Made by a program: the position numbers and the translations under genes. Positions 8,722 to 55,431 of a stretch of 64,000 nucleotides of DNA are shown piece after piece. The first letter of the stretch is position 1; the number at the start of each line of letters is the position of its first letter. Below the pieces are notes generated by a model. That model was given only the letters and a program-made list of their open reading frames with translations. It made no database searches and was not told the origin of the DNA. The DNA is from Pyropia yezoensis (lineage: Eukaryota; Rhodophyta; Bangiophyceae; Bangiales; Bangiaceae). Location of the stretch: positions 33,210,283 to 33,274,282 of the forward strand of contig CM020619.1 of the NCBI GenBank assembly GCA_009829735.1. The letters are read 5' to 3'.

Positions 8722-9088
8722 AAGGAGGGCTTATCTGTGTGAAGAGACATGATGAAGGTTTGCTTCAGTATCTTCCTTGTGTACCATACCTTGCGAACTT
8801 TCAATCTCAATAGATACGAATGATTCTTGTGTGATTCTGGACATTAAGTGCAATACATGGAAAGTGCGCAAGCACTCTGTACACCATGCAATTTGTTTAC
8901 GAAAGTATAGTATCTTTCCCTCTAGCAAATGTGGTACGACCGATCACCCGCTCGCGAGCTGGAGTTTCCCGTGCTTGCATCACACCTCTGTGCTCACCTC
9001 CGCCTTCATCTCACCTGCTCCTTCTGCCTTGACCCCACCTCCTTCCGTTGGATTGCTTCCTGGTAGGCCGCACAAGGGGATGGCCACC
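8722..9088 (+). promoter_or_regulatory. 5' flank of the Tab2 gene
   Basis: This stretch is AT-richer than its surroundings and becomes pyrimidine-rich from about 8950 to 9060 (repeated CTCACCTCC, TTCATCTCACCTG), as is common close to plant and algal transcription starts. No TATA box is obvious. The reading frame is open through here from 8777, but the encoded residues do not resemble the family. Confidence 0.35.
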
Positions 9089-10222
9089 ATGGCTTTCGCG
9101 GCGTCGGCGTTTTGCCCGGCAGTGCAGCGGGGAGCTCCGGGCACTCTCACTGCCGCGGTCATCAGCACTGGTCGGCCGCCCGCAGTTGGGTGGCCGCGGA
9201 GCAATGCCCCTCAGCCTGGCGCGCCCCGCCGGCGGAGGTTCTTGCCGTCGCGGCAGCCATCGCCGTCAGCCCAACTGTCGGAGCCATCCCCTACCGCCCC
9301 CCCGCCCACTCCTGCCGAGGCGTACTCCCCCGCTGGCACGGTGTCCCCCATCTGGGAGCTTGATTTCTACTCGCGTCCCGTATACGGCAGCGACGGAAAG
9401 AAGCGGTGGGAGCTTCTGATCACGGACAAGAACGGGGTGTGGAGCCATGTGGAGGTGTTTGCCAACGCGGACGTCAATTCTGCCAATCTCCGCTCCCGGG
9501 TGGCGGCGGTGATTGCGGACGCGGAGGAGAAGCCAACGACCATCCGCTTCTTTCGGGCTGCCATGTTCAACATGATCTCCATTGCCCTGTCGGGCCTCGA
9601 CGTGGTGGCTGCGCCCTCGCGCCGTACGTACGCCCTGTTTGACATGGTTGCCGACCGACAGGCCAACGTCTATCCGTCCCTGGAGGGTTACCGGGCACCC
9701 TCTGGCGGGGAGGGGCTCCCCGGCTTTCTCCGGGCTAGTGCCGGCGTCATGGACGTGTCAACGACGACGCCCATGCCTGACGCCCTCCGCGGGGAATCGT
9801 TTGCGTTTGTGCAGTTGCCCATGTCTACGGCGTTGGGGTTCTTTGAGGCCGACGCGACGGGTGAGTTCTTTGGAGACGCCTGCCGGGTGGACCCGGCCAT
9901 GGCCGATGCGGACCCGCTCCTCACGGGGCTGTGCGTCTACTCCAAGCGGGCCAAGGGCGTTGCCGCGTGGATGTCAGGGGCCGAGGTGGTGGCGGTGAAG
10001 GCAGACGTCGCCACAAAGGAGGTGGTGTTGCTTTGTGGGCTGTCCACCTCGTACTTGTTTGCGCGGCTGGTGGGTCGCATCCGGGAGGAGGGCAAGGCGT
10101 TCGAAAAGGCCAAGGAGGCGTCAGGGGGAATCCACTTCCTGGCTGTAATGGTGGAAGAGGGCAGTGACGAGGTGGAAGGCTTTTGGCTGCTCAGGGAACC
10201 TCGGGGGCTGGACTCTCTGTGA
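9089..10222 (+). CDS. Tab2/Atab2 family RNA-binding protein (DUF1092), plastid-targeted
   Basis: The family binds A/U-rich RNA and activates translation of photosystem I (psaB) and, in plants, photosystem II messages in the plastid. It is also conserved in cyanobacteria. The protein is about 377 residues and intron-free. Residues 1-85 are rich in Ala, Ser, Pro and Arg and look like a transit peptide. The conserved domain opens with WELDFYSRPV (about residue 89), continues with KKRWELLITD, TTIRFFRAAM, PSRRTYALFDMV and LPxxL-like segments, then DALRGESFAFVQLP, and closes with the family's C-terminal GGIHFLAVMVEEGSDEVEGF and WLL. The ATG at 9089 is chosen for its perfect context GCCACCATGG; an in-frame ATG at 9080 would add three residues. 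The gene converges with the organellar DNA polymerase. Family assignment is strong from motifs; the exact target RNA is inferred. Confidence 0.88.
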   Translation: MAFAASAFCPAVQRGAPGTLTAAVISTGRPPAVGWPRSNAPQPGAPRRRRFLPSRQPSPSAQLSEPSPTAPPPTPAEAYSPAGTVSPIWELDFYSRPVYGSDGKKRWELLITDKNGVWSHVEVFANADVNSANLRSRVAAVIADAEEKPTTIRFFRAAMFNMISIALSGLDVVAAPSRRTYALFDMVADRQANVYPSLEGYRAPSGGEGLPGFLRASAGVMDVSTTTPMPDALRGESFAFVQLPMSTALGFFEADATGEFFGDACRVDPAMADADPLLTGLCVYSKRAKGVAAWMSGAEVVAVKADVATKEVVLLCGLSTSYLFARLVGRIREEGKAFEKAKEASGGIHFLAVMVEEGSDEVEGFWLLREPRGLDSL

Positions 10223-10570: not shown

Positions 10571-13384
10571 CTATTTGGCATCGTACCAGGTGCGCGCGGC
10601 CTTCGCATCCACTGGCAGCTCCACTGACAGTTCCACCCCCTCCAGAGGCGACTTCATCACCCGAGTCACCAGAGGGAGAGCATCGTCCACCGAACCGGTA
10701 GGCCCTTCCAATATGATCTCGTCGTGCACTTGCAGGATGACACGCCAGCCCAGCCGCTGGAGCACTGGATGAGCATGCAGGCCGAGCATCGCCGCCATGA
10801 CCAGGTCCGCCGCGGACCCTTGCAGAGGCGCATTAATCGCCGCGCGCTCCGCGTGCGCAACGGCAACGCGGCGGTCAAAGCTGCCACTACGGCCCCCGCC
10901 GCCGCCCCTGCGCACAGCCCGCTGCACCAGCATGTCGGGCAGGTGCCGGCGGCGGCCAAGGAGGGTCTCCACATAGCCCGTCTCGCGCGCACGCGCAAGG
11001 GTGGACTCCTGCCACGCACGCACCTCGAAGCGGTCCGAGTACCAGCGGGTGACCGTTTCTGTCGCGTCTTTGACAGAGATGCCCCAGTCTTTTGCTAGGC
11101 CGTTCGTGGTTTTCCCATAAGCGATGGAAAAGTTCAGCGTCTTGGCCCGTCGCCGCTCCATTCCAAAGGCGTCCTTGAGGAGCGGCACTGTCTCTGCCCC
11201 CTCGGTGCCGCCACTCTCCCCCTCACCAGCGCTCTCTGCCTCGAGGCGTACGGTGCCATTGGCCACCGCCGCCGCCACATGTGGGTACATGCTGACAGCA
11301 GTGCGGCTGTGAAAGTCCCCGCCCGCAGCAAACGCGTCGAGCATCGACGTGCAGCCGCTGAGATGGGCGAGCAGCCGCAACTCGAGCTGCCCATAGTCCG
11401 CCACGATGAGCGCATTGCCTGGAGCGGCGGTGAAAGCCGACCGAACTTTGTAGAGGTCCTTCTCGAGCGCTGGCTGGTTCTGCAGGTTGGGACGCCGGCA
11501 GCTGAGGCGGCCAGTCTCAGTGTTGATGTTGAGCGATGCGTGGATGCGGCCGTCCGCGTCAGGGTGCAACTGCAGGGGGTTGAGAAAGGAGGTGATCATG
11601 TGGGAGACGGCGCGTGCCTCGCAGAGAGACTCCAGCGCCTCACACGCTTCCGGGTCGGCCGCACCGCCATAGACGGGAGGGGACGCCGAGGGAGAACCGG
11701 CCAGCTGGCGGAGCACCGAGTTGTTTGCCGAAGGGTAGCCCTTCTTGGTGAAGACCGTTGGAATGAAGCCCTGGCTCACCAGCGTCACCTGTCGGATATC
11801 CCGCTTGGGCTTGCGTCCACCGGTGGGGGAGGTGCAGGGCGCGGCTTCGCTGTTTTCCTCCTCTGCAGGGTCACCAGGGCCATCGAAAGACTCGGCGTCA
11901 GCAGCCAAGGTCGGCGACGCGCTTGTCCGCAACGCCGCCTGGTCCACCGCAAACGTATGCTCCTTCGGGAAGCGCACCACGCCCTTGCGAGAGCTGGGAA
12001 AGTGTCCGCCAAACAAGAGCTGCTGCAACTGCCGGTCGCTATGAACATTCATGTAGCGCGCGTCGGGGCAGTGAGCAGAGGCCCAGCGTCGAAACTTTTC
12101 CTCCAATAAAACACGGGACTTGACGGCATCAGCCTCCTTGGTGCGTAGGAGCGGAAGGTCCACCGCAAAGCCCACCCGTTCCATGTCGGTGAGCATCTCA
12201 CCAAAAGGCACAAACATGCTCGTGTACAAGTCCCAGAGGGTGCCACTGCCATCGGCGCACAGGTACTGCCCTTTCAGTCGCGCCCGCAACTCCTTGTAAA
12301 GGCGGAGAGTCAGAGCCGCATCGTGTGTCGCGTAGTCCACCCATTCCACCACCGTCGCCGGGTCCGTCTGGAGAGCCAACGGCGAGGGAACAGAAAGCAT
12401 CTTGCCAATAGCGCCCGACTTGAGCGTCGGCGCCACGCCAAACCGTTCCTCCATGGGCCGCTTGGCCTCGGCCAAGAGTACCTCGCCGAGCGCTCCAAGC
12501 GAGTACTTGAGGCGAGCAGTGCACTCGAGCCGCCCCATGTGCATCGTGTCGCCCGCAAAGCCAGCCGCGTCAATGCCCCCATTCGCCAACACCGCCCGGT
12601 CAAACGAGTAGTTGTGCCACACCTTTGGGTGCGTCGCGTCCTCCAGGTAGTCCCGCAGGTAGTGGAGCGCCGCACCCGGCCCTGTATTGTCCACCCACAG
12701 GTGTGGGCCGGCGCCAAAGTCCACCTCCGCTCCCGCGTAGGCGGTGGCGCAAATGACGCTACCGGCGCCGACGGGGGATTCGACCTTCGGGTTCACGCCC
12801 TCCGTTTCCGTGTCCCACGCGACGGGGGTGCCACTCGATGTGACGGCGGGGGAGTTGAGGACGGCCAATGCGCGCTCCGCCGACCGCTCATCATTGACAA
12901 TCGTGACACCGGGGAAGGCCGAGCGGGGAAGACCGGCGGGGCCCAGGGGCTCGGTTGCCGCATGCCGGCCAGGCCGTGGGGACGGCGTTGGGGCTGCCGC
13001 AACCGGGGCGGCCGCGGCCGTCGCCGGGGCAGTCGCTGCGGCAGGTAGCGCCAGCGGCGACGGCGGTGGCGGCGGTTGTCGCCGAGCAATGACGCCCACC
13101 CCCAGCGGATGCGCCCCCTCCTCCCTCGACCGTGGAGCGGTGACAAGCCATGGGAGCGCCCCTCCGCTGGGCGCAGGGCGGGCCTGAGAGGAAGCAACGG
13201 ACCCAGTCCCCCACCCCCACCGAAGAAGACCAAGCGCAGCAAAACAAGAGCATGCCACAAGCACACCCCAGGCAGCCGCGGGGACCACAACCCACCCACC
13301 ACAGGCGTCAGACAACACGAAAACACCATGTGAATGGGTAAGCGGCCTGTGACAGACGGGACACACCTTCGCCGCCACGTCCAA
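10571..13384 (-). CDS. Plant and protist organellar DNA polymerase (POP), family A
   Basis: Replicative DNA polymerase of plastids and/or mitochondria, related to bacterial Pol I but with its own 3'-5' proofreading domain. In the open frame of about 937 residues the exonuclease motifs are WDTETE (Asp191, Glu193), WHNYSFDRAVL (about 256-266) and YATHD (351-355). The polymerase motifs are A, VADYGQLELR (Asp about 663); B, RRRAKTLNFSIAYGKT (about 743-758); and C, QVHDEI (His-Asp-Glu about 887-889). All expected catalytic residues are present. Residues 65-160 are low-complexity Pro/Ala-rich. Acidic or Gly-rich inserts occur before the polymerase domain, after motif A and before the last helices. 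The frame begins at a TTG and has no ATG before about residue 281, and an in-frame stop lies just upstream, so a 5' exon must supply the start. See the candidate at 13493-13613. Confidence 0.9.
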   Translation of the reverse strand: MDVAAKVCPVCHRPLTHSHGVFVLSDACGGWVVVPAAAWGVLVACSCFAALGLLRWGWGTGSVASSQARPAPSGGALPWLVTAPRSREEGAHPLGVGVIARRQPPPPPSPLALPAAATAPATAAAAPVAAAPTPSPRPGRHAATEPLGPAGLPRSAFPGVTIVNDERSAERALAVLNSPAVTSSGTPVAWDTETEGVNPKVESPVGAGSVICATAYAGAEVDFGAGPHLWVDNTGPGAALHYLRDYLEDATHPKVWHNYSFDRAVLANGGIDAAGFAGDTMHMGRLECTARLKYSLGALGEVLLAEAKRPMEERFGVAPTLKSGAIGKMLSVPSPLALQTDPATVVEWVDYATHDAALTLRLYKELRARLKGQYLCADGSGTLWDLYTSMFVPFGEMLTDMERVGFAVDLPLLRTKEADAVKSRVLLEEKFRRWASAHCPDARYMNVHSDRQLQQLLFGGHFPSSRKGVVRFPKEHTFAVDQAALRTSASPTLAADAESFDGPGDPAEEENSEAAPCTSPTGGRKPKRDIRQVTLVSQGFIPTVFTKKGYPSANNSVLRQLAGSPSASPPVYGGAADPEACEALESLCEARAVSHMITSFLNPLQLHPDADGRIHASLNINTETGRLSCRRPNLQNQPALEKDLYKVRSAFTAAPGNALIVADYGQLELRLLAHLSGCTSMLDAFAAGGDFHSRTAVSMYPHVAAAVANGTVRLEAESAGEGESGGTEGAETVPLLKDAFGMERRRAKTLNFSIAYGKTTNGLAKDWGISVKDATETVTRWYSDRFEVRAWQESTLARARETGYVETLLGRRRHLPDMLVQRAVRRGGGGGRSGSFDRRVAVAHAERAAINAPLQGSAADLVMAAMLGLHAHPVLQRLGWRVILQVHDEIILEGPTGSVDDALPLVTRVMKSPLEGVELSVELPVDAKAARTWYDAK

Positions 13385-17143: not shown

Positions 17144-17262
17144 ATCCGCGCACTGCGCGAGAAGAGCACGTGAGATCGGGTGCTCGTGGCTGTTTCTGCG
17201 TTTGCTACTTTTTTTTTATTGCTCCATCTTTTCTCTTTTTCCTTGCTTTCGGTCGATAAAAT

Positions 17263-17731
17263 TGTGGCAAAAACCACAAGCACACACGGCACCCAAGTTG
17301 GGGCGGGGTGCCAGGGCTGCCTCCCGTGTCGGGGGAACCGGAAGAAGTGCAAGTCGCACACACTCTGTCCCTGTTGTGGGGCAAACCCCCCACGGACAAA
17401 CAAGAGGATGGTGTGTGGTCCAACAGTTTCTTGGTCGGGACGGGGACGCAGGGCCAAGCCCCGCTGTCCCTCCCCTTATCCCCCCAGGGTCCACTCAGAA
17501 TCTCGCCACTCAGAATCTCCCACCCCAGCACCTGCCCACCGGGCCACACGAAAATTCAAGACGATAAATGCAGAAAACCCTCAAATCCAAGTTGGATTTA
17601 CTACTAAGCTAACTATCCCAAACTTAGGGAATATGGACCCAAATGCAGGGGGAGGAACGGATCAGGCTAGTGGCCTGCCGCCCCTTGCATGGCACGTGTT
17701 GCCCCCCTACCTGGGGGTCAATACTGCCACA
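17263..17731 (-). repeat. A1 3' LTR (469 bp)
   Basis: Bounded by the inverted ends TGTGGCA and TGCCACA. A direct copy of 25773-26241 with about two differences. It is preceded, in the element's sense, by the polypurine tract at 17732-17744. Confidence 0.92.
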
Positions 17732-17744
17732 CTCCCCTCTCCTC
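17732..17744 (-). other. A1 polypurine tract
   Basis: The minus strand reads GAGGAGAGGGGAG directly against the 3' LTR, the usual primer for plus-strand synthesis. A 14-bp palindrome (GTGCGTAAACGCAC, 17778-17791) lies close by. Confidence 0.85.
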
Positions 17745-18069
17745 AGTTCCGACCGACCCGGTCGGCCCTGTGAGGGGGTGCGTAAACGCACGTCTCGGCG
17801 TTGGGGGCGCGACTTGCTGTCCCCCAGCGTGTGCGTAACGCGGATGTGGAGGCGGTCACGTTGACCGCCCCTCTCCTCAAGCTTGCCCACTCGGCAGCTT
17901 GCTTTCTTCAGTTCACACTTCACCTTCACCACCACCTCCTTTTCACTTTCCACTGGGCCGCCCCACGCTGGGGAGGCCACCCGTATACCCACGATCCGAG
18001 TCCCCCTCAACTCGAGGCGGGTCTCGTGCTGCGATAGCCAGAGCTTCTCTCCCCAACTTGGGGAGAGTC
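17745..18069 (+). promoter_or_regulatory. Putative leader/promoter of the A1 antisense ORF
   Basis: Sequence between the 3' LTR and the antisense ORF. From about 17900 to 17960 it is strongly pyrimidine-rich (repeated CTTCACC, CACCACCTCC), resembling the pyrimidine patches at plant core promoters. An antisense protein cannot be made from the genomic RNA, so a promoter here or in the LTR's opposite strand is required if it is expressed. This is inference. Confidence 0.35.
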
Positions 18070-20014
18070 ATGGCGACTCCGGGAGTGGAGACGGACTCTC
18101 TTGACGAGCGCATGGAGGACACCTCCTACGGTGCAGCACCCGCCGGGACTTCCGGCGGGGGCTCCGCGATTGCTCCGGGGGATGGGACTCCCGCGTCACC
18201 CGGCTTTGGGTTGACGGCGGGATCTCCCCCGGAGGCGGGACAAGTTGTCCCGCGTGAGGCCTTGGGGCGGTGGTTACACCCCGCTTGGCCTCTTTATGAG
18301 GAGGGGTTGACTGTTCTTCGCTGTGGCCGACTTGGCGCAGCGATGGGCCGGGTATGGGACCGCCTACGGGAGAAGTATCCCCGTAGGGTCGGGTTCCCGG
18401 CCGGCTTCAGGACGGACCAGTTTTGCCTTCCTGGACGACGAGGAGGTTGAAGACGTCCAACGTGCCAAGGCCATGGTGGACCGCGGGGGAACTATCCCGG
18501 GTCCCGGCGACTTGCCGACCTTCACGTGGGACGCTGTGGCAGCTCGCCCACCGTACCTCCACGAGGCCGATCCGCACACTCATCACTTTGATGAGCGGAT
18601 GGAGAAAGACTTCCGGCGAGGTCCCTACTTGGTGACCTCGGCTCAACTTGAGTTTCCTCAACAGTCTGCTGCCAGTAAGGAGCAGTACTATCCGAAGAAG
18701 CCCGAGTGGTGGCCTCAAGTTGAGGTCCCCTACGGGTTCCCGGCGTTGTTGCCCCGGTTGCTTGACCACTTCGACTCCGTCATGTTGACGGCTGCCCCTG
18801 ATCACCTGGTGTGGGCCATGTTGGCCACCCAGTGGCTCCTCGAGGTCATGTCGACCTGGGTGTCCTGTGTTCAGCGGCGGGGGATGCTCTGGCATCTCCC
18901 CCTCCGGCTCATCCAGGGTTTGGAACAGCTCACCCCTCAGCTAGTTGCTGAGGGGTGCTCATCAGGACAATTCACTCTACTTGAGGAGATGCTCCGGCTC
19001 CATAAGTTTATCGAGTGGGAGAGCATTGAGCACAAGTTGCGCCGCCCCACTCGTGGGCCCAAGGACGATGGCCCACTTCGCCAGTTCGTGTGGGTCGCTC
19101 GTGAACTTCACGACGGCCGTGTGGTCCTACGAGAGGGGTTGGGCATCGGGGACTACCCGTATGCCCCGGGGGTGGATCGCCACACTGCGCCACCCCCGGA
19201 CAAGCCCATAGTTATGGCCGTGCCGTCCTATGATGACCACATGACTCAACCCACTGCGGGAGCCCCAAGTCGGGGTCGCAGTTACACCCGGGTACCGCCA
19301 CCTCGGCGGGCCCCTCCGCTTTCTCCGGTTCCTTTCCAACCTCACGGGAACATCCCGATCAGCGTGGCCGTGGAGTCTTCCACCCCGGTGTCCCCCAACT
19401 TGGGGGCCACCCTCCTGACGGTATACCCCAAGTTGGTGTTGCCGCCCACGCCTCTAACCTCAGAGATGATGATCACCACGTTGGTGCGCACTATTTCCTG
19501 GTTGGCCGCGTCGACCGCAACCCTACAGAGTTCCGAGACTCCTCAACTTGAGGAGCGCGTTCGTACTGCAGTAGCGACCGCGAGTTGCGAGTCGGTGGCG
19601 GAGTTTATGACAGCCGAGTTGGCTCGTATTGGGGCTATTATGCCCCAGCCAGCCCCACTTTAGCGTGGCAAACGTCGCGCGAGCCGGGCATACTCGCCTC
19701 CTCGCCGTCGTCGCCGACACTCTCGGCGCTCTCCCTCCGTGTCGGAAGACGAGTTGTCTTACTCCGTCTCGGAGTCCTCTACCCCGTCGGAGACGGAGTC
19801 TGTCCAGCGTCTGCGTCGCAAACTTGCGCGCAAGACCAGGCAGAAGAGTGGCCACGGTCGGCGCCACTTGCGCGACCGTGAGGGGCGCGACGGTTCCGAC
19901 TTGGAGCCGCCGCCCCCTCCAACGAGTGGAGACCGTTATCGGCCTGGGTCTCGCCGCTCGCCTCCACGGGAGGGCGAGGGCCGTGGAGTGGGAGAGTCTA
20001 GCATGCGTGCCTAG
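18070..20014 (+). CDS. A1 antisense ORF region (protein of unknown function, opposite to gag-pol)
   Basis: A coding region of about 1.9 kb on the strand opposite to gag and pol, converging with pol. It has about two breaks. Parts in order: a short N-terminal region with an acidic MEDTS stretch; a segment with HPAWPLYEEGL and VWDRLREKYPRRVGF; the central domain (about 18707-19042) with PEWWPQVEVPYGFP, a hydrophobic helix, CVQRRGMLWHLP and FTLLEEMLRLHKFIEWESI; a proline-rich linker; a helical block (SEMMITTLVRTISWLAAS); and a tail rich in Arg and Ser with an acidic VSEDE stretch. Its central domain resembles that of the B-family antisense ORF. Antisense extra ORFs between pol and the 3' LTR are known in some plant Ty3/gypsy lineages. 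I recognise no named domain. It is present in A2 too (41110-43052). Confidence 0.65.
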
Positions 20015-20125
20015 TTGGCAGCTGCCTTTGTTGTGAGAGTGTGAGGGTTAGGGCTGTAGTTAAAAGCCACTCTGCGTACCACTTCGACTTGAAGCACTCT
20101 CGTGGCACTGTTGCTCGGCCTTCCC

Positions 20126-23100
20126 TCACGTTGAGGGAGGGCTGTTAGGGTCTATCCCATTCCGGGCACAGTACGCCCGGACCTCCTCAGCGGGAAGGTC
20201 CTCCACATACTCCCACGTATCATCCTTGGCTTTGTAGCCAAACCAACGCACCCTCAACATGAGGCGGTCAGTGTCTTCATCCCATCCGTGGTCGATGAAC
20301 TTATCGAACACGTACTCCTGTGGGCCCTGTTTGGCCGCAGGCAGTGAGGGGAGGCGCCACGATTCCAACGCACGCGCCCAAGCTGGGTCGCCTGCAGGCG
20401 GTGGTGCAACTTTGACCACGTCCTGTCCGTTCACTGTGCGGACCCCATCGTCACTTTCGATGGTGAAGCGCCGCCCATCAGTACGAAGGACCTGGTACGG
20501 TCCCTTCGTCTGGAATACCAGCTTACCCCCAGTTGGGGTGTGCGAGTGTACCAGCACCCAGTCACCCTGCTCGGGGACATGCTTAGCATTGCGCACCTTT
20601 TTGTCAAAGGTACGCTTGTAGCGCTTTTGTGCTTTGTCCATCTCAGCCCTGACTTTAGGGATGAGGTGCTCCAGCCTAGCAGCGAACTCCGCCTTACTCT
20701 CAGTAGGAGTAGGCGTACTGCCACTACCCTCCCCAGTTGGGAGCGACCGCCGCACGGCAATAGACCGCACACGACGGGGGGTCACAAAAGCGAGGGGTAC
20801 TTCCCCTGTAGATGAGTGAACCTGCGAATTGTAGGCAGTAGTAAGGATAGAAATGTATTGGTCCCACGTCTTCACGTGCTCACTCACATAGTGGCGCAGC
20901 TGCCTAACAATAGTTTTGTTGAAGCGCTCCACCTGCCCATTAGTTTGTGGGTGGTAGGGGGTGGCATAGTTTGCCTTAACCCCCAACATATCCAGCACTC
21001 CCTGAAACAGTACAGACGCAAATTGCGGTCCATTGTCCGATAGTGTACTATCTGGGATGCCATACGCGGCAACCCAGTGATCTAGGAAGGCTGACACGAC
21101 CGACATGGCCGTGATCTCTGCCAGTGGGATCGCTCGCGTAAGTTTCGTGAAGCGGTCACAGATGACCAGGAGGTACTGGTTGCCTTCCTCGGTCACTGGC
21201 AGTGGCCCAAGGATGTCCATCGCCAACGCGGCGAAGGGCTCCTTGGCCGGGAACAATAGCATAGCCGTACTAGGCCGCCGTTCCATCAGACGGTTCTGTG
21301 CACAACTTGTGCAGGCAGCCACCCAACTGTAGATGTCCACCACCATGGACGGCCAGTAGTACCTGGTCCTCAGGGTCTGGTACAGTTTACTAGACCCCAG
21401 GTGTCCACCCGTGGGAGCGTTGTGCTCCCTCTCAAGGATACTGTCCTTGAGGGATGCGGGGACGACAAGTTGTTCAGTCCCCTGGAATACCCCCCTCCTC
21501 ATGAGGAGGCCATCATCTCCCAGAAAGAAGCGCGTCTCAACCACCGTATCCAATGTATCCCTCTGCGACTTGCAGAAGGGATCCTCGGCCTGGGCCTTCA
21601 CCACCTCGTCCAGGGACAGGGGCAAGTACTTCTTGTCCAGCTGCTGCTGAAGCAACACACAACCAAGTTGGTCGTAGCTAGCGTCCACATCCAGGATGTA
21701 GTGGCCTCCCAACCTGGGAATTGCCAAGATGGGGGGCTTCAGCAGAAGGTCTCGAAGAGCCTCAAAGGATTCCTGCTCCACCCGACTTGGGGGAGGCAGG
21801 TTCTTCTGTAGCGTTGAGCTCACTAGCTCATTCAACGGCTTCGCCACCTTGGCGAAGCCCTTGGTGAAACGTCGGTACACGTTACACATCCCGAGGAAGC
21901 TCCTCATCTGGGTCTGGGTCCGGGGGTACTGAGCCATACGTATGGCCCTCAAGTTCTTCTCGTTAACACTGAGACGCCCCGGACGGACAACACGTCCCAA
22001 GTATTCCACCTCCTGAGTGACGAGGTGGCACTTACTCGCCTTCAGTGACACACCGGCGTCAGCAAGTAGCTTGAACACCTGGCCAAGATGGCCAATGTGC
22101 TCCTCCGGACTTCGGGAGAACACAATGATGTCGTCTAGGTACACAAGACAGATCTGCCACCGTACTCCGGCCAGAATCATGTCCATAGCGCGCTGGAAAG
22201 TTGCCGGCGCGTTACACAGACCAAACGGTAGGCGCTTGCACTGGTAGGTACCACAGTGACAGGTAAAGGTAGTTTTATGCCTGTCCTCCGGGGCAATGGG
22301 AATTTGCCAGTACCCCGCGTTACAGTCCAGGGTAGAGAACACGTTCGCCTCCCCCAGAGAGTCCAGACAGTCATCCATCCTAGGTAGGGGATAACTGTCC
22401 TTCACCGTGCTCTCGTTGAGCTTACGGTAGTCGATACAAAACCGGGGGGTTCCATCAACTTTGGGGACTATAACCACCGGACTCGCCCACTCGGCGTTGC
22501 TGGCCTCGATCACATCGAGGGCCTCCATGCGAGCAACTTGCTCCTTAACGAGGGCCCTTGAACGGGGTCCTCCCCTATACGGTTGTTGACGTATGGGGGG
22601 TGCACCGGGCTTCAACTCGATCCGGTGTTGGGTAGCTCTCATGAGTCCCAATTGACCATCCCACAACTTGTGATATTGGTCCAAGAGGCGTTCAACTTGA
22701 ACCCTCAACCTGGGGGGAACACCCTCCATGTTCACATGGGGCCGAGGAGAGGTGGCCGACTTGGCTTGATGCTTCTCCTTTCCGGACTTCGGGTCGCTAC
22801 TTGCGCCCGCGTTGAGGGTGACCGCTACTACCGGTCCCTCATGTTGGTCGATATAGCCGAACTTGGCTCCCGACTTGAAGTACTTGGGCGTCGGACTCAG
22901 GTTCATCACCTGGATCCTCCACGGGACTCCGGCTTTGGAGTCCATCGTGCCAAGGGCAACATGCACTTGGTGCTTGCGAGCAAGACGGGGGTTAGGGTGC
23001 ACCAACCCGTTCCCCGAAAAATCAGTTACAACGTCAACGTGCGCCACCGAGTTGGGGGGCAACGTGACCTTGCGGGCTAAACGCAGGGTAGCAGTAAACC

Positions 23101-23710
23101 CTTCCCTCACAGAGCAAACAGGCTTCGACTGTGAGACTGTCACAGGAGCCACAGACTTTCCCTTACCAAGGATGGGGATAGTCTCCCCATTCATCAACTT
23201 GACCCAGTACTCGGGGACACAGATCAATGGCACTTGTGTTACGACATAAGGGGTACCCAGAAGCAGGGGTACCGATATATTCTTAACTACACCATAGGTC
23301 ACGTCGACCTCATGGGTCCCCAACCTAGTTGGTAGGGTCACGGCACCAACGATGGGAAGTACCCCACCATTGATGTCAATCATATGGTCAGCCCTGGACC
23401 TCCAGCGTTGGAGCTTCACCTCCTTTGGTAATAGCGACTTGCGTATCAAGGAGGCTCCTGACCCGGTATCAAGCACGATACGGGCACAACAGGCGCGGCC
23501 GGGGGCTAGTTGCACCCGTCCAGCCACCTGGAAGTTCTCACCCGTCAGCACCGCGATGACCCGACGTGAGTTTACGTTCTTGGGGAGTCCTACCCGAGGT
23601 GGGCGGACTCCCTTAGGTCGCCGCAGTATCCGGCACGGTTGGTTCGTCCTCCTGGCCCACTTGGCCGAGGCTGCCGTTGTGAGCTTCGGACGGCCAGCTC
23701 CAACGGTCAT
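20126..23710 (-). CDS. A1 pol: protease, reverse transcriptase, integrase, chromodomain
   Basis: Aspartic protease VLDTGSGASLIRK; reverse transcriptase FCIDYRKLN, CNAGYWQIP and YLDDIIVFS; integrase with HLGSSKLYQTLRTRYYWP and the CTSCAQN zinc-binding pair, AMDILGPLPVTEEGN, LSDNGPQF and YHPQTNGQVERFNKTI (the D, D and E of the catalytic triad); and a C-terminal chromodomain with LRVRWFGYKAKDDTWEYVEDL. The chromodomain places it among chromoviruses, which use it to direct integration to marked chromatin. The ATG at 23710 overlaps the gag stop as ATGA. Domain identity is certain. Confidence 0.9.
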   Translation of the reverse strand: MTVGAGRPKLTTAASAKWARRTNQPCRILRRPKGVRPPRVGLPKNVNSRRVIAVLTGENFQVAGRVQLAPGRACCARIVLDTGSGASLIRKSLLPKEVKLQRWRSRADHMIDINGGVLPIVGAVTLPTRLGTHEVDVTYGVVKNISVPLLLGTPYVVTQVPLICVPEYWVKLMNGETIPILGKGKSVAPVTVSQSKPVCSVREGFTATLRLARKVTLPPNSVAHVDVVTDFSGNGLVHPNPRLARKHQVHVALGTMDSKAGVPWRIQVMNLSPTPKYFKSGAKFGYIDQHEGPVVAVTLNAGASSDPKSGKEKHQAKSATSPRPHVNMEGVPPRLRVQVERLLDQYHKLWDGQLGLMRATQHRIELKPGAPPIRQQPYRGGPRSRALVKEQVARMEALDVIEASNAEWASPVVIVPKVDGTPRFCIDYRKLNESTVKDSYPLPRMDDCLDSLGEANVFSTLDCNAGYWQIPIAPEDRHKTTFTCHCGTYQCKRLPFGLCNAPATFQRAMDMILAGVRWQICLVYLDDIIVFSRSPEEHIGHLGQVFKLLADAGVSLKASKCHLVTQEVEYLGRVVRPGRLSVNEKNLRAIRMAQYPRTQTQMRSFLGMCNVYRRFTKGFAKVAKPLNELVSSTLQKNLPPPSRVEQESFEALRDLLLKPPILAIPRLGGHYILDVDASYDQLGCVLLQQQLDKKYLPLSLDEVVKAQAEDPFCKSQRDTLDTVVETRFFLGDDGLLMRRGVFQGTEQLVVPASLKDSILEREHNAPTGGHLGSSKLYQTLRTRYYWPSMVVDIYSWVAACTSCAQNRLMERRPSTAMLLFPAKEPFAALAMDILGPLPVTEEGNQYLLVICDRFTKLTRAIPLAEITAMSVVSAFLDHWVAAYGIPDSTLSDNGPQFASVLFQGVLDMLGVKANYATPYHPQTNGQVERFNKTIVRQLRHYVSEHVKTWDQYISILTTAYNSQVHSSTGEVPLAFVTPRRVRSIAVRRSLPTGEGSGSTPTPTESKAEFAARLEHLIPKVRAEMDKAQKRYKRTFDKKVRNAKHVPEQGDWVLVHSHTPTGGKLVFQTKGPYQVLRTDGRRFTIESDDGVRTVNGQDVVKVAPPPAGDPAWARALESWRLPSLPAAKQGPQEYVFDKFIDHGWDEDTDRLMLRVRWFGYKAKDDTWEYVEDLPAEEVRAYCARNGIDPNSPPST

Positions 23711-25653
23711 TCGCTTCCCGCCGACTTGGCGTCCGAATCTGAGGGCGGGGAGGAAGACGACGAGTCCGAGGACGACGTGTCCGCCTCCTCCGCCAAGGGT
23801 GTGGCGACCGCGACGACCGGTCGAGACCAACCCTCGCGGCGTGAACGTACTTCGCTCGTGGCCGACTTCTTACTCGCATTCCTAACAAGTTGTTGGATGC
23901 GTTTACTCAACTTGGGGCAGTCATATGCCCAGTGTCCATCGGAGTTGCAGTTCCAACACCGATGGTCAGTTCCCGGAGGGGTCTTCCCAACTGGGGAAGA
24001 CGAAGATGTACCCTGGGACGTTCCCACGGCAGCTACCACCCTCTCCTTGCGGATTCGGCGTGCCTCTCTCAACTCTCTGGCCTGGCGCGCCTCCTCCCGT
24101 TCCTTGGCCAACTCGGCCTGACGCTCCTGGCGTTGTTCCTCCCGCAACTTGCGGTAGGCCTCGCCTCTGCGATAGGCGAACCTGGCCAACTCGGCCAGGG
24201 TCGCCCGGGCAGTGTTATGCTCCCGGGTCTCCATCCGGACTGACCAATGGAGTCCCTCCACAAACCGACTCTTCACCACAGCTTGTGGATGAAGAAACCC
24301 ACAAAGATTGTTGAGCTTACGGACTCGCTCCGCAAAGGACAACTCGTCCTCCGCCTCTTCCTGATGGGCTTGCGTAAACTCCTCGACTTGAGAAGCCAAC
24401 GCTGCCTCATCAACCATGGCTCTCAACAACCAGTTGACGAGCTCCAAATAGGACGTCACCTCCCCAGCGCCTCCACTTGAGGAGCTGGGCATGACGGACA
24501 TAAGTTCTGTCCGCAGGTCTCCCTTCGTAAACTCCTGTAGCATGTAGAAAGCCATGCCTTCACTTATGGCATTGTCGTCACAGGCTTTTGTGAAACGACG
24601 TAGGAACTCAAAGACACGGAGGGGGGGAGGTCCATCCCACTCCGCTCTGTGCCCAAAAGAATGAAGTGCATTCTTCTTGGCACGGCCCATAGCTCGGGCC
24701 TGAATAGGACCATACGCCACCGACTTGTTGTGGAGGGCGTAGGTCTCACAGTCAAAGATCCGCTGGTAGACCGGGTTGGCTACCTGAATCTTGGGCGGCA
24801 CCTCACGTTGAGGGAACAGCCGCTTTGGCACTGGGGTAAGTCCACCCTCAGTGCCTGTAGTCTGGTACGGCGAGCTTGGTGTAGCCGCCGGCGTTTCCGA
24901 GGGGAACTCCCCCGTGAAGGGCGTACGCCCCACCGCGTATGGTGTGGCTCCCTCGTTGGGAGTCACAGGTGTCGCCCCCAGTTCGGGGCGACCCGAGGTA
25001 GGCGTCAGGAGAGATTCCCCCTGCGCCTGTGGGCTCGAAAGCCCCAATCCGGTCTGGACATTAAGGCCATCTGGCAAACTCGCCACAATCTGATTCAGAA
25101 TAGTATTCGTCATCGTGACCACCAGGTCCGGCAAAGTCTGCCGCAACACATTGGTCGCCTCCCGACGGACAGTTTCCGCGAGGAGGGGATTGACGACTCC
25201 AGTTGAGTCTCAGTCCGCCTCCGGGAGTCCACCTGAGGGGTAAGCACGTTCCTCAGGGGTCTCAACCGGGGGCATGGGCGCGAGCCCATCGCCGACCTAC
25301 GGAGGTCCGCCGTCCTCCGAAAGCCTAGTTGGCGACAGCTCCGAGCCAAAGTTGGCTCCACCCCGAGTGGAACCCGCGAGGACAGTCCTCACCCCTTGGG
25401 ACGTTCCCGTTGAGTATACCACACGGTGGCCAGACTTCGGCCCACCCACATCAGAAGTGTCACCCGAGTGAACTCCCGACTGAGTCGGGGTGGCCTGTTG
25501 CCCGCCCGCACTTCCAGTCCTGCTGGCTTGAGGGACCTCTAGTCCCTCTGCGACCCCAGGTAAACCCACCTGTGTCTCACCAGTATTCAAAGGCACTGAA
25601 GTACGTGCGTCACCCGTGTACTCCCCGGACGACGGGGGGTCCGAGCTAGCCAT
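23707..25653 (-). CDS. A1 gag region with CCHC zinc knuckle
   Basis: Capsid/nucleocapsid region. An N-terminal Ser/Thr/Gly/Pro-rich part starts at the ATG at 25653. The capsid-like helical core contains VFEFLRRFTKAC and LNNLCGFLHP. A charged helix rich in Glu, Arg and Ala (about 24200-24080) is followed by the zinc knuckle CWNCNSDGHWAYDC and a Ser/Asp-rich tail. It is broken in about one place. Confidence 0.8.
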
Positions 25654-25733
25654 GTTGGCTGACGATCCGTATGACACGGTCCAAGACCACCGGTCCTCTA
25701 AGACAGAGGACCCCCTACACCCAGGCGCACCCG

Positions 25734-25750
25734 GAGGTAAAGTTTACCTC
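25734..25750 (-). repeat. 17-bp palindrome beside the A1 PBS
   Basis: GAGGTAAA-G-TTTACCTC is a perfect inverted repeat placed one base from the primer-binding site. The equivalent is kept beside the PBS in A3, and B has a different hairpin in the same place. Confidence 0.75.
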
Positions 25751-25751
25751 T

Positions 25752-25770
25752 GTCCCCTGCTGCTCCACCA
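25752..25770 (-). other. A1 primer-binding site
   Basis: The minus strand reads TGGTGGAGCAGCAGGGGAC two bases after the 5' LTR. Starting with TGG it is complementary to a tRNA 3' end (...CTGCTCC-A-CCA). The same 19 nt occur in family B. The tRNA species is not identified. Confidence 0.8.
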
Positions 25771-25772
25771 AA

Positions 25773-26241
25773 TGTGGCAAAAACCACAAGCACACACGGC
25801 ACCCAAGTTGGGGCGGTGTGCCAGGGCTGCCTCCCGTGTCGGGGGAACCGGAAGAAGTGCAAGTCGCACACACTCTGTCCCTGTTGTGGGGCAAACCCCC
25901 CACGGACAAACAAGAGGATGGTATGTGGTCCAACAGTTTCTTGGTCGGGACGGGGACGCAGGGCCAAGCCCCGCTGTCCCTCCCCTTATCCCCCCAGGGT
26001 CCACTCAGAATCTCGCCACTCAGAATCTCCCACCCCAGCACCTGCCCACCGGGCCACACGAAAATTCAAGACGATAAATGCAGAAAACCCTCAAATCCAA
26101 GTTGGATTTACTACTAAGCTAACTATCCCAAACTTAGGGAATATGGACCCAAATGCAGGGGGAGGAACGGATCAGGCTAGTGGCCTGCCGCCCCTTGCAT
26201 GGCACGTGTTGCCCCCCTACCTGGGGGTCAATACTGCCACA
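25773..26241 (-). repeat. A1 5' LTR (469 bp)
   Basis: Begins TGTGGCA and ends TGCCACA; near-identical to 17263-17731. Contains the element's promoter and polyadenylation regions by family knowledge. Confidence 0.92.
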
Positions 26242-28835: not shown

Positions 28836-29954
28836 TCAAGGCGGCCCCAGCTGACCGGGAAGGGCCGGAAACACGTCCTCCAATGGCATCCCCTCCCCAG
28901 TCATCTCGGGGAGGTTTCGCAGGACCTGCCGTCGCGCCTCGCGATAATGGCCTCGTATCGATGACAAAGAAATGGAAGAAAATGCGAGAACATGAGCAAT
29001 ACGATCCGGCAACAGCGGATGCCAATACACCAAGCTGCGCAATCCATGCTTGTAGTCCTTAAAAACAGGCTCTATGGCAGAGAAGTCGGGTGAGTAAGGG
29101 GAGAGACGGATAAAAGCGACCCCAATCACCGCGAAAATCTCATCCGCAAACGCAGTGTGAACAGAGGCGTTATCGTATACCACCACGCAGTCACTGGGCT
29201 GCTCTGACCAAGGCAAGCCAGGGTGATACACATTCATTCTCCGCACAAGGCTGGTGCAAAACAAAACAAAATCATCACCATTCAATGCGGGGGGTACCTC
29301 GTCAACAAAGAGCTCCAAAATACAACGAGTATACGATATGGCCACCGTGGAAGAGAAGCGCACGCGGGCCCGAGGGTCCGGCGAGAGCGCTTCCAGTGGT
29401 CGACCAATGGGCGCCCAGCCGCGCCGGCGCACCATGGCCTGACCAGCCGCGTGCGTTTCGTCGAGGACGACGATGCAGCGATCTGGGACTTGACGGTACA
29501 GCCGACAAAAAGCCACCCTCAACTCCTGCGACCTGTCCAGCGCCAGTCGCTCCACCTGCTTCACCGAAAATCCGATCTTGTTCAGCATTCGAGACAGAGT
29601 GCTTGTCGACACTGGCCAGCTCTGCTCCCAGCCAGGCAGGCCCGCCAGCTTCCCAAATATTGCCTCTTTTTCCCGAAGAAACATTTCTGGGTGGGTGCGC
29701 ACAAGGGTGTTGAGCGCCGCCAAAAACTCTGGATTGAAGACCGCGGCGTCCGCATGCGCGTTGTGGATGACATCATTGTTCCACGGGGAGCCGTGGCACT
29801 CAAAATTGGCCCACCACTGCTTCGCAGCTGCAAGACTGCACCCGACGTGCTCCAAAATGGACGCCCATGATTTTCCTTGGCGCCGGTTCTCGATGACCTG
29901 CCATCGGATAGCAAAAGGGTACATGGTTGTGTAGAGGAGGAAGGCTGCACGCAT
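28836..29954 (-). CDS. IS630/Tc1-like DDE transposase (DDE_3)
   Basis: Intact single-exon frame of about 372 residues from the ATG at 29954; the frame is open further upstream without another ATG. The N terminus carries a helix-turn-helix region (AIRWQVIENRRQGKSWASIL, LAAAKQWWANF) followed by a second segment with STLSRMLNKIGFSVK. The catalytic core shows VVLDETHAAG (first Asp), WAPIGRP, CVVVYDNASVHTAF (second Asp) and LSPYSPDFSAIEPVFKDYKHG (final acidic residue). This order is that of the DDE_3 superfamily which cuts at TA dinucleotides. I could not find inverted repeats flanking it, so it is either immobile or domesticated, or its ends lie in the GC-rich tract. It differs from the decayed copy at 2113-3091, belonging to another subgroup. 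Confidence 0.8.
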   Translation of the reverse strand: MRAAFLLYTTMYPFAIRWQVIENRRQGKSWASILEHVGCSLAAAKQWWANFECHGSPWNNDVIHNAHADAAVFNPEFLAALNTLVRTHPEMFLREKEAIFGKLAGLPGWEQSWPVSTSTLSRMLNKIGFSVKQVERLALDRSQELRVAFCRLYRQVPDRCIVVLDETHAAGQAMVRRRGWAPIGRPLEALSPDPRARVRFSSTVAISYTRCILELFVDEVPPALNGDDFVLFCTSLVRRMNVYHPGLPWSEQPSDCVVVYDNASVHTAFADEIFAVIGVAFIRLSPYSPDFSAIEPVFKDYKHGLRSLVYWHPLLPDRIAHVLAFSSISLSSIRGHYREARRQVLRNLPEMTGEGMPLEDVFPALPGQLGPP

Positions 29955-30594
29955 CAGCGCCGACACCCAATGTTCACAAGTCGACTTGGTCTGGCGACTT
30001 GGCCTGGAACCGGCCACGACCGCCGGCGACCGAACTGGACATACTACGGATATTTTTCAAATTCCATAATTACCGAAATATATAGCGACAAAATGTTAAT
30101 ATATTTCGATAACCGTCGCTTAATGGCGCGCTCGTCCCAGCGCGCGGTTCAGCAGAGGCTGTGCTGCATCTCACGGGATCCGACGTCCAACCAGAAGTAA
30201 GTACTCTTCCTGGGTAATCACGAAGGGCTCCGTGGAAGGACAAACCGGCCACGCGATAGCCACGAAATGAAGCCTCCCGCTTACAGACAGAGTGGAATCA
30301 CGTCAGGCTAAGAAAGGCCCTTGCGGCCGTTCACTTCGCAGCCTGCCCCAGCGCCGCCTAGAGACGCGGCAGAAGCGGGTCGCGCGAGCCCAGCGCCGTA
30401 GATTTTTGGATGCAAACACGCATTTCGGGCCCAAGTAGCGAATCAGCACCGGGGAGACTGGAGCGACGAGGAATTCTTTGCGTCTGGCTGCATTTTCTTC
30501 GCGCTTACTTCGTTCCAAAAGCATGTACATGCGTACATTGGCCAGAAGAGATTTATATAGTTTTTTTATTAGTACCAGTGAAGGACTGAGGAGT
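29955..30594. other. 5' flank of the transposase; no other gene
   Basis: AT-rich sequence at 30040-30125 contains a 10-bp hairpin. The rest (30130-30590) holds short unremarkable frames. Confidence 0.4.
30074..30108. repeat. 10-bp inverted repeat upstream of the transposase
   Basis: CGAAATATAT (30074-30083) and ATATATTTCG (30099-30108) pair perfectly around a 15-nt loop. It lies about 120 bp upstream of the transposase start and may be a terminal or subterminal site of the element. Confidence 0.6.
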
Positions 30595-32840: not shown

Positions 32841-33816
32841 GTCCGGGTTCTTGCGCCCGTGCACCGGCGTCGTCTTGCAAGCCAAGCTCGAAGCACACCT
32901 GTGTTTCGTCCGAGAACATTTTCTTTTGTTCTGTGTGCTACTTGGAGGTGCACAGGTGCATTTTTTGAGGGGACAGCGTCACACGTCCAGCGTGCCTCAA
33001 GACGGCGGACAGCGCGGGTCGCCCGCCTCTGCGCGCCACACAAACGCTCGGCTGCGACCACCGCCGTGAGGCGCTGGAGGCGGCAAACCACCCGACGCCT
33101 GCGCCCCTGCGCGTCCCCGTGCAGCCGCACTGCGCGAGCGCATCGACGACCAGCACCGCGCGATCTGCCCTCTCTACAGTAACCCTTCGCTCTTTTACCC
33201 GCCCTCGCATTTTGGTGCGCCTGTCCGCCGCAGGCACCGTTCGCTCGTCCCCCGCCCTCACCTGCAGCCCCCTGCCCACGCGTGCCGCGTGCGTCGTGCT
33301 GCGGCGTTCTCCCCCACCCCCCTCCCACCCACATCGTTACGCGGACGCGTGCCGTGCGCGTCGTGCCGCGCGCCCCCCCGACCCCCCCGCGTACCCCTAT
33401 TGTCTCGCCGAGGCGTGCTTTGCGCATCGAGCCGGGTTCCCTCCCCGCCCTCTCCCACCCGCAACGCCCCGCCATCCCGAACTGTGTGCGTCGCGCGGCT
33501 TCGCGCTCACTTCTTCAGTTGCCCATGCCGTCACGCTCATGTGGTCTTTCCGCCTGCCCCCCTCCCATGCAACGTTCTTCCCCCCTCTTCCCTCCCCCCC
33601 TTCGGCTCTTTTTTCCGGCTACTGCTGAGCTTCCTTGTGGCCACTGGATGCCTGTGCTCCCTCTGCGTTGCTGATCACACGGCCTGCCTGGGACAGCCTC
33701 CTGCAGCTATCATTGGTGCTGTGTTTGCAGCTACGGCCAAGACGGACAGGTATGTGTGCACATGGGACATCACTTTCATTGCGCAGGGTTGACAGCCGCG
33801 GGATGGGACATCCACC
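32841..33816. other. No gene recognised; left flank of element A2
   Basis: C-rich sequence from 33240 to 33610 gives spurious overlapping frames. The stretch 33690-33810 has a protein-like frame of about 30 residues without recognisable motif, directly before the A2 insertion. Confidence 0.4.
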
Positions 33817-34287
33817 TGCGGTAGTATTGACCCCCAGGTAGGGGGGGGCAACACGTGCCGTGCAAGGGGCGGCAGTCCACTAGCCTGACCTGTTCCTCCC
33901 CCTGCATTTGGGCCCATAATCCCTAAGTTTGGGATAATTAGCTTTGTAGTAAATCCAATGTGGATTTGAGGGTTGTCTGCATTTATCGTCTTGAATTTTC
34001 GTGTGCCCCGGTGGGCAGCTTCTGGGGTGGGAGATTCTGAGTGGCGAGATTCTGAGGGGACCCTGGTGGGATAAGGGGAGGGACAGCGCGGCTAGGCCTC
34101 GCTTCCCCGTCCCGACCAAGAAACTGTTGGCCCACACACCATCTCCTTGTTTGTCAGTGGGGGGATTGCCCCACACCAGGGACAGAGTGTGTGCGACTTG
34201 CACTTCTTCCGGTTCCCGCGACACGGGAGGCAGCCCTTGCGCACCGCCCCAACTTGGGTGTCACGTGTGCGAGTGGTTTTTGCCACA
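33817..34287 (+). repeat. A2 5' LTR
   Basis: 471 bp similar to the reverse complement of the A1 LTR, ending TGCCACA. It is followed by a PBS (34290-34308) with one mismatch to the 19-nt site of A1. Confidence 0.85.
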
Positions 34288-34406
34288 ATTAGTGGAGCAG
34301 CAGGGGACAGAGGTAAACTTTACCTCCGGGTGCACCCGGGTGTAGGGGGCCCTCTGTCTCAGAGGAACGGTGGACTTGGATCGTGTCATACGGATCGTTA
34401 GCCAAC

Positions 34407-34763
34407 ATGGCTGGTTCGGACCCCCCGTCGTCTGGGGAGTCCACGGGTGACGCACGTACTTCAGTGCCTTTGAATACTGGTGTGACACAGGATGTTCCTG
34501 GGGTCGCAGAGGAACTAGAGGTCCCTCAAGCCAGCAGGCCTGGAGATACGGGCAGGCAGCTGGCCACCCCGACTCACTCGGGAGTTCATTCGGGTAACAC
34601 CCCTGATGTTGGTGGACCGATGTCCGGCCACCGAGTGGTACACTGAACGGGAACGTCCCAAGGTGAGGGGACTGTCCCCGCGGGATCCACACGGGTTGGA
34701 GCCAACTTTGGCTTGGAGCCGTCGCCAAATATGCCTTCGGAGGACGGGGGACCTCCGTAGGTC
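34407..34763 (+). pseudogene. A2 gag, 5' part
   Basis: Homologous to the N-terminal Ser/Thr/Pro-rich part of A1 gag, on plus. A3 sequence in opposite orientation follows directly. Confidence 0.75.
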
Positions 34764-39844: not shown

Positions 39845-40998
39845 GGCGGCCTACTACGGCTATGCTATTGCTCCCGGCCAAGGAGCCCTTCGCCGCGTTG
39901 GCGATGGACATCCTTGGGCCACTGCCAGTGACCGAGGAGGGCAACCAGTACCTCCTGGTCATCTGTGACCGCTTCACGAAACTTACGCGAGCGATCCCAC
40001 TGGCAGAGATCACGGCCATGTCGGTCGTGTCAGCCTTCCTAGATTACTGGGTTGCCGCCTATGGCATCCCGGACAGTACAATGTCGGACAATGGACCGCA
40101 GTTGGCGTCCATACTGTGTCAGGGAGTGCTGGATATGTTGGGGGTTCAGGCAAACTATGCCACCCCCTACCACCCACAAACTAATGGGAAGGTGGAGCGC
40201 TTCAACAAAACTATTGTTCGGCAGCTGCGCCACTATGTGAGTGAGCACGTGAAAATGTGGCACCAACACATTTCTATTCTTACGACCGCCTACAATTCGA
40301 AGGTTCACTCATCTGCTGGGGCAGTACCCCTCGCTTTTGCGACCCCCCGTCGCGTGCGGTCAATTGCCGTACGGCGGCCGCTCCCAACTAGGGAGGCCGA
40401 TGCCAGTACCCCTACTCCCACTGAGGGTAAGGTGGAGTTCGCTGCCAGGCTCGAAAAACTCATCCCTAAAGTCAGGGCTGAGATGGACAAAGCACAAAAG
40501 CGCTACAAGCGTACCTTTGACAAAAAGGTGCGCAATGCTAAGCATGTCCCCGAGCAGGGTGACTGGGTGCTGTTACACTCGCACACCCCAACTGGGGGCA
40601 AGTTGGTATTCCAGATGAAGGGGCCATACCAGGTCCCTCGTACCGATGGGAGACGGTTTACCATCGAAAGTGACGATGCGGTCCGCACAGTGAACGGACA
40701 GGACGTGGTTAAAGTTGTACCACCTCTGGCAGGCGACCCGGCTTGGGCCCGTGCGCTGAAAGCTTGGCCCCTGCCTTCGGTACCTGCGGCCACACAGGGC
40801 CCGCAGGAGTACGTGTTCGATAAGTTCATCCACCACGGGTGGGACGAGGACACTAACCGCTCCATGTGGAGGGTCCGTTGGTTTGGCTACAAAGCCAAGG
40901 ATTATACGTGGGAGTATGTGGAGGACCTTCCCGCTGAGAAGGTCCGGGCGTACCGTGCCCGGAATGATATCGACCTTAACTGCCCTCCCTTAACGTGA
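39845..40998 (+). pseudogene. A2 pol, integrase and chromodomain part
   Basis: Contains AMDILGPLPVTEEGN, MSDNGPQL and YHPQTNGKVERFNKTI (catalytic D, D, E region) and a chromodomain (WRVRWFGYKAKDYTWEYVEDL). It is homologous to the same part of A1 pol and follows the A3 LTR end directly. Confidence 0.85.
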
Positions 40999-41109
40999 GG
41001 GAAGGCCGAGTAACAGTGCCAAGAGAGTGCTTTAAGTCGAAGTGGTACGCAGAGTGGCTTTTAACTACAGCCCTAACCCACGCACTCTCACAACAAAGGC
41101 ATCTGTCAA

Positions 41110-43052: not shown

Positions 43053-43329
43053 GGCTCTCCCCAAGTTACGGAGAGACGACCTGGTTGCAGTTGCACGAGC
43101 CCCACCTCGAGTTGAGGAGGGCTCAGATTGCGGGCAGACGGGTGGCGTTCCCAGCGTGGGGCGGCCCAGGGTAAGGTGAAGGGGAGGTGTTAGTGGTGGT
43201 GAGGTGAGTACCGATAAGAGCAAGCTGCCAAGTGGGCAAGCTTGAGCAGATGGGCGGTCAACGTGACCGCCCCCCCGTCCACGTGACGTACCGGGGGGAT
43301 AGCAAGTCGCGCCCCCAACGCCGCCATGT

Positions 43330-53012: not shown

Positions 53013-53238
53013 TTGGTGGAGCAGCAGGGGACGGGTTTCCGTCACCCTTTGTGGTGACGCCGTCTTCGGCCCTGGCACACGGATAGGGATCCGGTCCTTT
53101 TCTTGTACTCGTGGTGTTGCGACCTGATCGATTGTGTTGAGTTTTTACCTTTGACTGTGATCTACTGTTACTCTCCCCAATCTACCCCCTCGCTCTCTTA
53201 TTCGTGGTGATTGTTACGTCGGTTGACTGATTGTGACT

Positions 53239-55423: not shown

Positions 55424-55431
55424 GAGGAAGG

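Follow-up and report, generated by a model that had tools for sequence, protein, structure and literature searches.

Antisense open reading frames (ORFs) situated between pol and the 3' long terminal repeat (LTR) are a recognised class of extra genes in LTR retrotransposons. In PMC7264820 this class, termed aORF-3R, includes Grande gene23, RIRE2, PvRetro13 and Boty, from land plants and, for Boty, a fungus; its members are described as conserved and present in most copies of their own families, with function not known, and gene23 of Grande as having a nuclear product and its own antisense promoter. According to PMC11963269, nearly all recent Retand elements have an antisense ORF carrying TRP28 (Transposase_28, PF04195), the region between pol and the 3' LTR is long, with tandem repeats in about half of the elements, and retroviruses of the human T-cell leukaemia virus (HTLV) type possess antisense protein genes, HBZ and APH-2, with nuclear products. 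Here we analyse a stretch of 64,000 nt (hereafter the window) from the red alga Pyropia yezoensis (assembly GCA_009829735.1, CM020619.1, positions 33,210,283-33,274,282, forward strand), in which two families of retrotransposons, A and B, each have an antisense ORF between pol and the 3' LTR.

The sequence comparisons identify this antisense region as a protein-coding gene of the elements, and its product is very probably an undescribed protein which A and B elements need. Family A is represented in the window by the following features (window coordinates throughout).

17263-26241, minus strand: family A element, copy 1, with gag-pol on the minus strand, delimited by its LTR pair
17263-17731, minus strand: 3' LTR of A copy 1, from LTR comparison and termini
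17732-18069, plus strand: leader of the A antisense gene (equivalent to the 3' untranslated part of the sense RNA), between LTR and ATG, aligned in 12 copies
18070-20014, plus strand: antisense gene of A copy 1, broken; intact copies elsewhere encode 647 amino acids from the ATG
18485-19027, plus strand: core region of A, homologous to that of B (BLASTP, shuffles)
20015-20125, no strand: spacer between the two convergent stop codons of A, 111 bases
20126-23830, minus strand: pol of A, with reverse transcriptase, RNase H and integrase (Pfam) and a C-terminal chromodomain
23707-25149, minus strand: gag of A with zinc knuckle (PF00098 above cut-off)
41110-43052, minus strand: antisense gene of a second A-type copy (A2), broken, in pieces; it belongs to a different subfamily, with 85% identity to an intact A copy

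The LTRs of A copy 1 (17260-17731 and 25770-26241) are 99.4% identical; the LTR is 469 bp long, with ends TGTGGCA...TGCCACA, the flanks AAAAT and AAGAT match at four of five positions, and a purine-rich tract (17732-17746) adjoins the 3' LTR on the minus strand. The leader measures 338 bases. The antisense gene of this copy lies in pieces: its ATG (18070) stands in one frame, 450 open codons (18311-19660) follow in a different one, and 19664-20011 comes last. When the end of pol A was compared with PDB sequences, 26 matches with E of 1 or less were obtained, most of them named as chromodomain proteins, the best structures being those of HP1 (E = 7.8e-5) and Clr4 (E = 8.1e-5); the Pfam Chromo score is 19.4 bits, under its cut-off of 25.1. 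We classify family A as a chromodomain element by this predicted C-terminal chromodomain of pol.

Copy 1 of family B lies on the plus strand, with its antisense ORF on the minus strand.

57061-59598, plus strand: pol of B copy 1, with the end of the reverse transcriptase, RNase H, integrase and a very weak chromodomain match
60053-62422, minus strand: antisense gene of B copy 1, one open frame from the ATG, 789 codons (789 amino acids)
60785-61327, minus strand: core of the B product homologous to the A product (BLASTP)
62423-63013, minus strand: 591-base leader of the antisense gene of B, reaching as far as the 3' LTR
63014-63376, plus strand: 3' LTR of B copy 1, 99.7% identical to 43330-43692, with ends TGTAGCA...TGCTACA
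50731-52317, minus strand: antisense gene of B copy 2, entering an assembly gap

The chromodomain match of pol B (12.0 bits, E 0.21 in Pfam) is too weak to count. The N-terminal end of the antisense gene of B copy 2 cannot be judged, because it is covered by an assembly gap (52318-52817), a run of exactly 500 N.

The products of the two antisense genes share a homologous core. BLASTP of the open A piece against the B product gave E = 3e-8, with 24% identity over 186 columns, and comparison of the A and B profiles gave E = 1.1e-5 with a probability of 82%. The local score of the core, 127, was reached by none of 1000 global and none of 1000 local-window shuffles, both composition-preserving, whose maxima were 76 and 66, respectively; for the full-length pair the shuffle maxima were 94 (global) and 100 (local-window). 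The motif R-[RQ]-G-x-L-[WF]-H-L-P lies inside the core and is found as RQGRLFHLP in the proteins of Pyropia vietnamensis, described below, that cover this part. A common C-terminal domain was rejected, as the A and B stretches score 20 against a shuffle mean of 25.8, though both structural models show three helices there. The remainder of the elements is likewise related: the gags are 24.7% identical over 219 amino acids (E = 2.9e-16), pieces of pol are 34-57% identical, and A and B have an identical primer-binding site following the 5' LTR. A and B are therefore distant relatives.

A sequence-only reading of the window had proposed a long antisense coding region at this place in two families with differing gags, with central domains that correspond. 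Element anatomy confirms the position in both families, and BLASTP, profile comparison and shuffles all uphold the correspondence of the central domains as more than a likeness of composition. In B the region is a single frame of 789 codons; both A copies in the window are broken into pieces. The gags, though different, are homologous, so that the two families are related, if distantly.

In order to examine how widely the frame is kept open, we searched the genome (107.5 Mb, 11 contigs); the places scored are the best-scoring ones, ranked by likeness to the query, and are not a census of all copies. With the 450-codon piece of A as query, 86 of 94 places have a stop-free frame of at least 722 codons, seven have shorter frames and one contains a stop, and 45 of 57 places found for B are without a stop. 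The antisense ORF is thus stop-free in most of the best-scoring places of both families, a feature by which membership of the aORF-3R class is recognised. In 23 of the 30 fetched A loci (L003-L032) the frame is exactly 724 codons long and its first ATG is codon 78, so that the product has 647 amino acids. The other five frames of the intact A copy L009 contain 10-25 stops (10, 16 and 25 in the three opposite frames), and the other five frames of B contain 7-23. A DNA search with A2 recovered 39 further copies (88-92%); when its open piece served as a protein query, three stop-free places, with frames of 729-731 codons at 69-73%, were found among 158 places.

Selection was measured as the ratio of non-synonymous to synonymous substitution rates (dN/dS) by the Nei-Gojobori method, using 25 equally long A copies (300 pairs), of which 24 are stop-free, and 30 B copies (23 stop-free). 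The 25 A copies are those of the 30 fetched loci that align gap-free to L009 over 1944 bases; L003, L004, L005, L006 and L019 were omitted, and all but L019 were analysed separately. For A, the antisense frame gives dN 0.0051 and dS 0.0792, a ratio of 0.064, and the other five frames 0.165-5.2. Sites that vary in at least two A copies number 6, 4 and 77 at codon positions one, two and three, so that 77 of 87 are third positions (binomial p 1.4e-26). Along the product the ratio is 0.094 for residues 1-60, 0.056 for 61-330, 0.007 for 331-470, 0.043 for 471-560 and 0.249 for the basic tail (561-647). For B, the ratio is 0.484 in the antisense frame, 0.530-1.61 in the other frames, and 0.43-0.56 throughout the product, with 16, 8 and 43 sites variable in at least two copies at the three codon positions (p 2.4e-7).

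Three controls accompany these values. First, the end of pol, of which only the last 1032 bases served as yardstick, has a ratio of 0.094 against 0.074 for the antisense gene in the same 19 A copies; these are the copies of the 25 with ungapped identity to L015 above 0.85 on the pol side, six (0.80-0.82) having been dropped. Second, two A subgroups, recognised by their leaders, are separated by 0, 2 and 21 fixed differences at the three codon positions. Third, A2 of the window, which is broken and was not picked by any search, shows 72, 53 and 156 differences from L009 at codon positions one, two and three (156 of 281 differences thus being third positions), with a dN/dS of 0.244, and of 0.255 against L015. 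The other broken copies have ratios against L009 of 0.141 (A copy 1 of the window), 0.040 (L004), 0.173 (L005) and 0.247 (L006), and of 0.084-0.302 against L015; the ratios of broken copies include decay after insertion. We conclude that strong purifying selection acts on the A antisense gene, at about the level seen on the adjoining pol end, and that selection on B is moderate, with dN/dS below 1. The earlier proposal of an old, selected antisense gene in algal chromoviruses is supported by a core common to two families and to P. vietnamensis proteins, the chromodomain of pol A, and ratios far below 1 in A and moderately below it in B; the promoter of its own and the control of gag-pol by convergent transcription that the same proposal envisaged would be additional possibilities.

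Protein searches gave at least one match for A, at least seven for B and at least ten for a masked profile of both. There are at least 11 distinct relatives, seven of them hypothetical proteins of P. vietnamensis and four contig proteins, with no Pfam domain listed; among the matches listed, the P. vietnamensis relatives, known from proteins alone, are 32-59% identical to B. Four of the P. vietnamensis gene models (P0005, P0006, P0008 and P0010) are without pieces of the conserved core, possibly owing to false introns in the annotation. One contig protein, P0011, matches 126 scored places in the P. yezoensis genome, two at 99%, one at 75%, one at 59% and 122 at 50-55%, the B copies included; the two places at 99% have frames of 850 and 895 codons and represent, by their sequence, a further family in this genome. 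By comparing two search tables by hand, we found at least six integrase places followed, 0.7-1.3 kb downstream and in opposite orientation, by an antisense-gene match:

C1:2308514, C1:11126985, C1:21098634, C1:37983379, C2:18674745 and C2:22066326, opposite strands: integrase with antisense gene (table comparison)

The other 144 integrase places are uninformative because both lists are incomplete.

No accepted domain match was obtained for the antisense products in Pfam, PHROGs or PDB sequences; of the two PDB sequence searches, one gave a single match at E = 0.36 and the other none. DUF6214 was rejected as a chance match, since two of 13 members match, with E 0.014 and 0.065, below the cut-off of that domain. 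TRP28 (PF04195) was absent from Pfam scans of the products and had no genome match at E up to 1, in a search whose control matched only E. coli, below cut-off, and so was no true positive control; Pfam likewise gave no bZIP match in either product. The N-terminus is acidic in both products (A, -7 over the first 40 residues; B, -10), but a basic Arg/Ser-rich tail, reaching +10 within one stretch of 40 residues, is present in A and absent from B. The leaders of A and B fold far better than shuffles on the antisense strand (z -5.6 and -5.1; -4.1 for the complement of A), and a stem-loop lies just upstream of the A antisense ATG. Windows of 300 bases along both elements (17433-26132 and 53100-63299), on both strands, mostly give z of -1 to -5 against dinucleotide shuffles, with extremes of +0.6 and -9.1. 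Since windows throughout both elements mostly beat shuffles on either strand, the idea of a specially structured leader was rejected.

On balance we favour an accessory role, probably in the nucleus, for the protein that this gene encodes; the model is Grande gene23, which has a nuclear product and its own antisense promoter. The product would help the element that encodes it, most likely in the nucleus, by controlling either transcription of the element or the incoming DNA and its integration. Expression might start from a promoter in the leader or the 3' LTR and read towards pol. The gene would have descended together with gag and pol from the common ancestor of A and B, which is the simplest account because gag, pol and the antisense product are all homologous between the families. 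Weak hints of a nuclear role come from the acidic N-terminus of A and from its strongly basic tail, which resembles a nuclear localisation or nucleic-acid-binding tail.

Several observations weigh against this interpretation. The basic tail is absent in B and coincides with the highest ratio along the A product, and therefore cannot be the essential part. The AlphaFold models of the A and B products are unusable (mean predicted local distance difference test scores 31.0 and 32.5), and selection shows that the protein matters, not what it does. The ratio for B is only moderate and most variable sites of B are private to single copies, as expected from decay after insertion. Many of the 158 places found with the A2-type piece contain stops, and the P. 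vietnamensis relatives are known at the protein level only. The copies used for the main dN/dS estimates were retrieved by protein-score ranking, a procedure biased towards low dN, for which the end of pol, the differences between subgroups and A2 serve as controls. Finally, the short A spacer is conserved too, with a mean pairwise difference of 0.0168 against 0.0227 for the whole ORF (19 copies), so that some of the conservation close to the ORF is non-coding.

An unlikely alternative, though one with some points in its favour, is that the product has a structural role or belongs to the particle, as a further Gag- or Env-like protein, and is not a nuclear regulator. Both models predict, at low confidence, a helical core with a similar order of helices, and constraint is similar to that on the pol end. 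Yet the product has no similarity to gag A or gag B (best E 0.38) and no Pfam zinc knuckle, and a convincing membrane helix is absent in both products, the best 19-residue hydropathy of 1.2-1.5 being low for one. An origin from gag or pol was rejected as well (best E 0.035 for pol A and 0.38 for gag B). We regard as improbable that a host gene was captured by the ancestor of the elements and is now used by them or merely carried. Capture is among the origins of extra ORFs discussed in PMC7264820 and PMC11963269, but no clear host gene appears among the at least 11 relatives, seen at the protein level only, and mere carriage is refuted by selection.

Very improbable, too, is that the region acts as RNA, its antisense transcripts pairing with gag-pol RNA and regulating it while the open frame is incidental. 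The convergent layout with a spacer of 111 bases in A and the good conservation of that spacer would suit such a role, and antisense control RNAs are discussed for other elements in PMC7264820. However, third codon positions of A vary while first and second positions hardly do, a pattern that RNA function alone would not give; the low dN/dS of A largely refutes RNA as the sole function, and roles for RNA and protein could coexist. That the open frame is an artefact of codon bias on the opposite coding strand is scarcely credible, even in a window of 59.5% GC with long chance frames in places, because nothing is coded opposite, the opposite A frames being full of stops and pol ending before the ORF, and because dN/dS is lowest in the antisense frame, which refutes it for A and holds by little for B (0.484 against 0.530 in one opposite frame).

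Other features of the window concern the arrangement of the elements and their surroundings. The region 33812-43323 is a mosaic of A sequences, with LTRs at 33817-34290 and 39373-39844 in opposite orientations; directly next to the second of these A LTRs (at 39844) comes, inverted, a piece of 3.5 kb with the end of pol and the antisense gene, which stops just short of a B LTR. The two B elements form a near-perfect tandem, 99.6% identical over 8.8 kb, which could be partly a product of assembly; the 500-N gap sits between the antisense gene of B copy 2 and the LTR shared with B copy 1. In both B copies the spacer that separates pol from the antisense gene contains a 24-base unit with an inverted repeat, present three times (50355-50425 and 59677-59747). 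To the left of the elements are two host-like genes, for a Tab2/Atab2 RNA-binding protein (8777-10222, plus strand) and for a family A DNA polymerase with 3'-5' exonuclease (10571-13384, minus strand), and between the A copies lies an ORF with a DDE_3 transposase domain (28836-30017, minus strand).

Extra antisense ORFs have long been recorded in LTR elements, with no function assigned to them (PMC7264820, PMC11963269). To these the present case adds a measure of selection at the protein level, with the pol end as yardstick, and a core homologous across families and in a second host species. The novelty lies in the protein family, in its occurrence in a red alga and in a chromodomain element, and in the measurement of selection. 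In the literature searched, which was of limited coverage so that a published case is possible, no red algal antisense ORF was found. The view of the sequence-only reading that the product is not described fits both the domain and the literature searches, although antisense ORFs between pol and the 3' LTR were already a known class. The antisense protein is a clear target for further work, and its relatives suggest that some 'hypothetical proteins' of Pyropia are element proteins.

HBZ has acidic and basic regions, and A resembles it, by description, in this layout as well as in being an antisense protein gene. Splicing and a 3' LTR promoter belong to the HBZ and APH-2 side of the comparison, again by description, and neither A nor B has a Pfam bZIP match. 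Retand shares with our elements an antisense ORF in the region between pol and the 3' LTR, and the B spacer has its small 24-base tandem repeat; it differs in TRP28, not found here, and in being a non-chromovirus, whereas A has a chromodomain. The closest likeness is to aORF-3R, with which the A and B antisense ORFs share place and orientation; the hosts of that class are land plants and a fungus, as opposed to a red alga here, and the products studied here match no Pfam domain, the comparison of sequences having been made with TRP28 alone. We think it rather probable, from sequence, that an antisense accessory gene encoding an entirely new protein family arose in the chromodomain retrotransposons of red algae, as an invention separate from those of land plants, fungi and retroviruses; it would be as indispensable as pol to the lineages carrying it and would have been kept across several element families and at least two host species. 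If this is true, antisense accessory genes would be a recurrent solution of LTR elements, reached by convergent origin, and the abundant, naturally replicated copies would allow their function to be tested by comparison.
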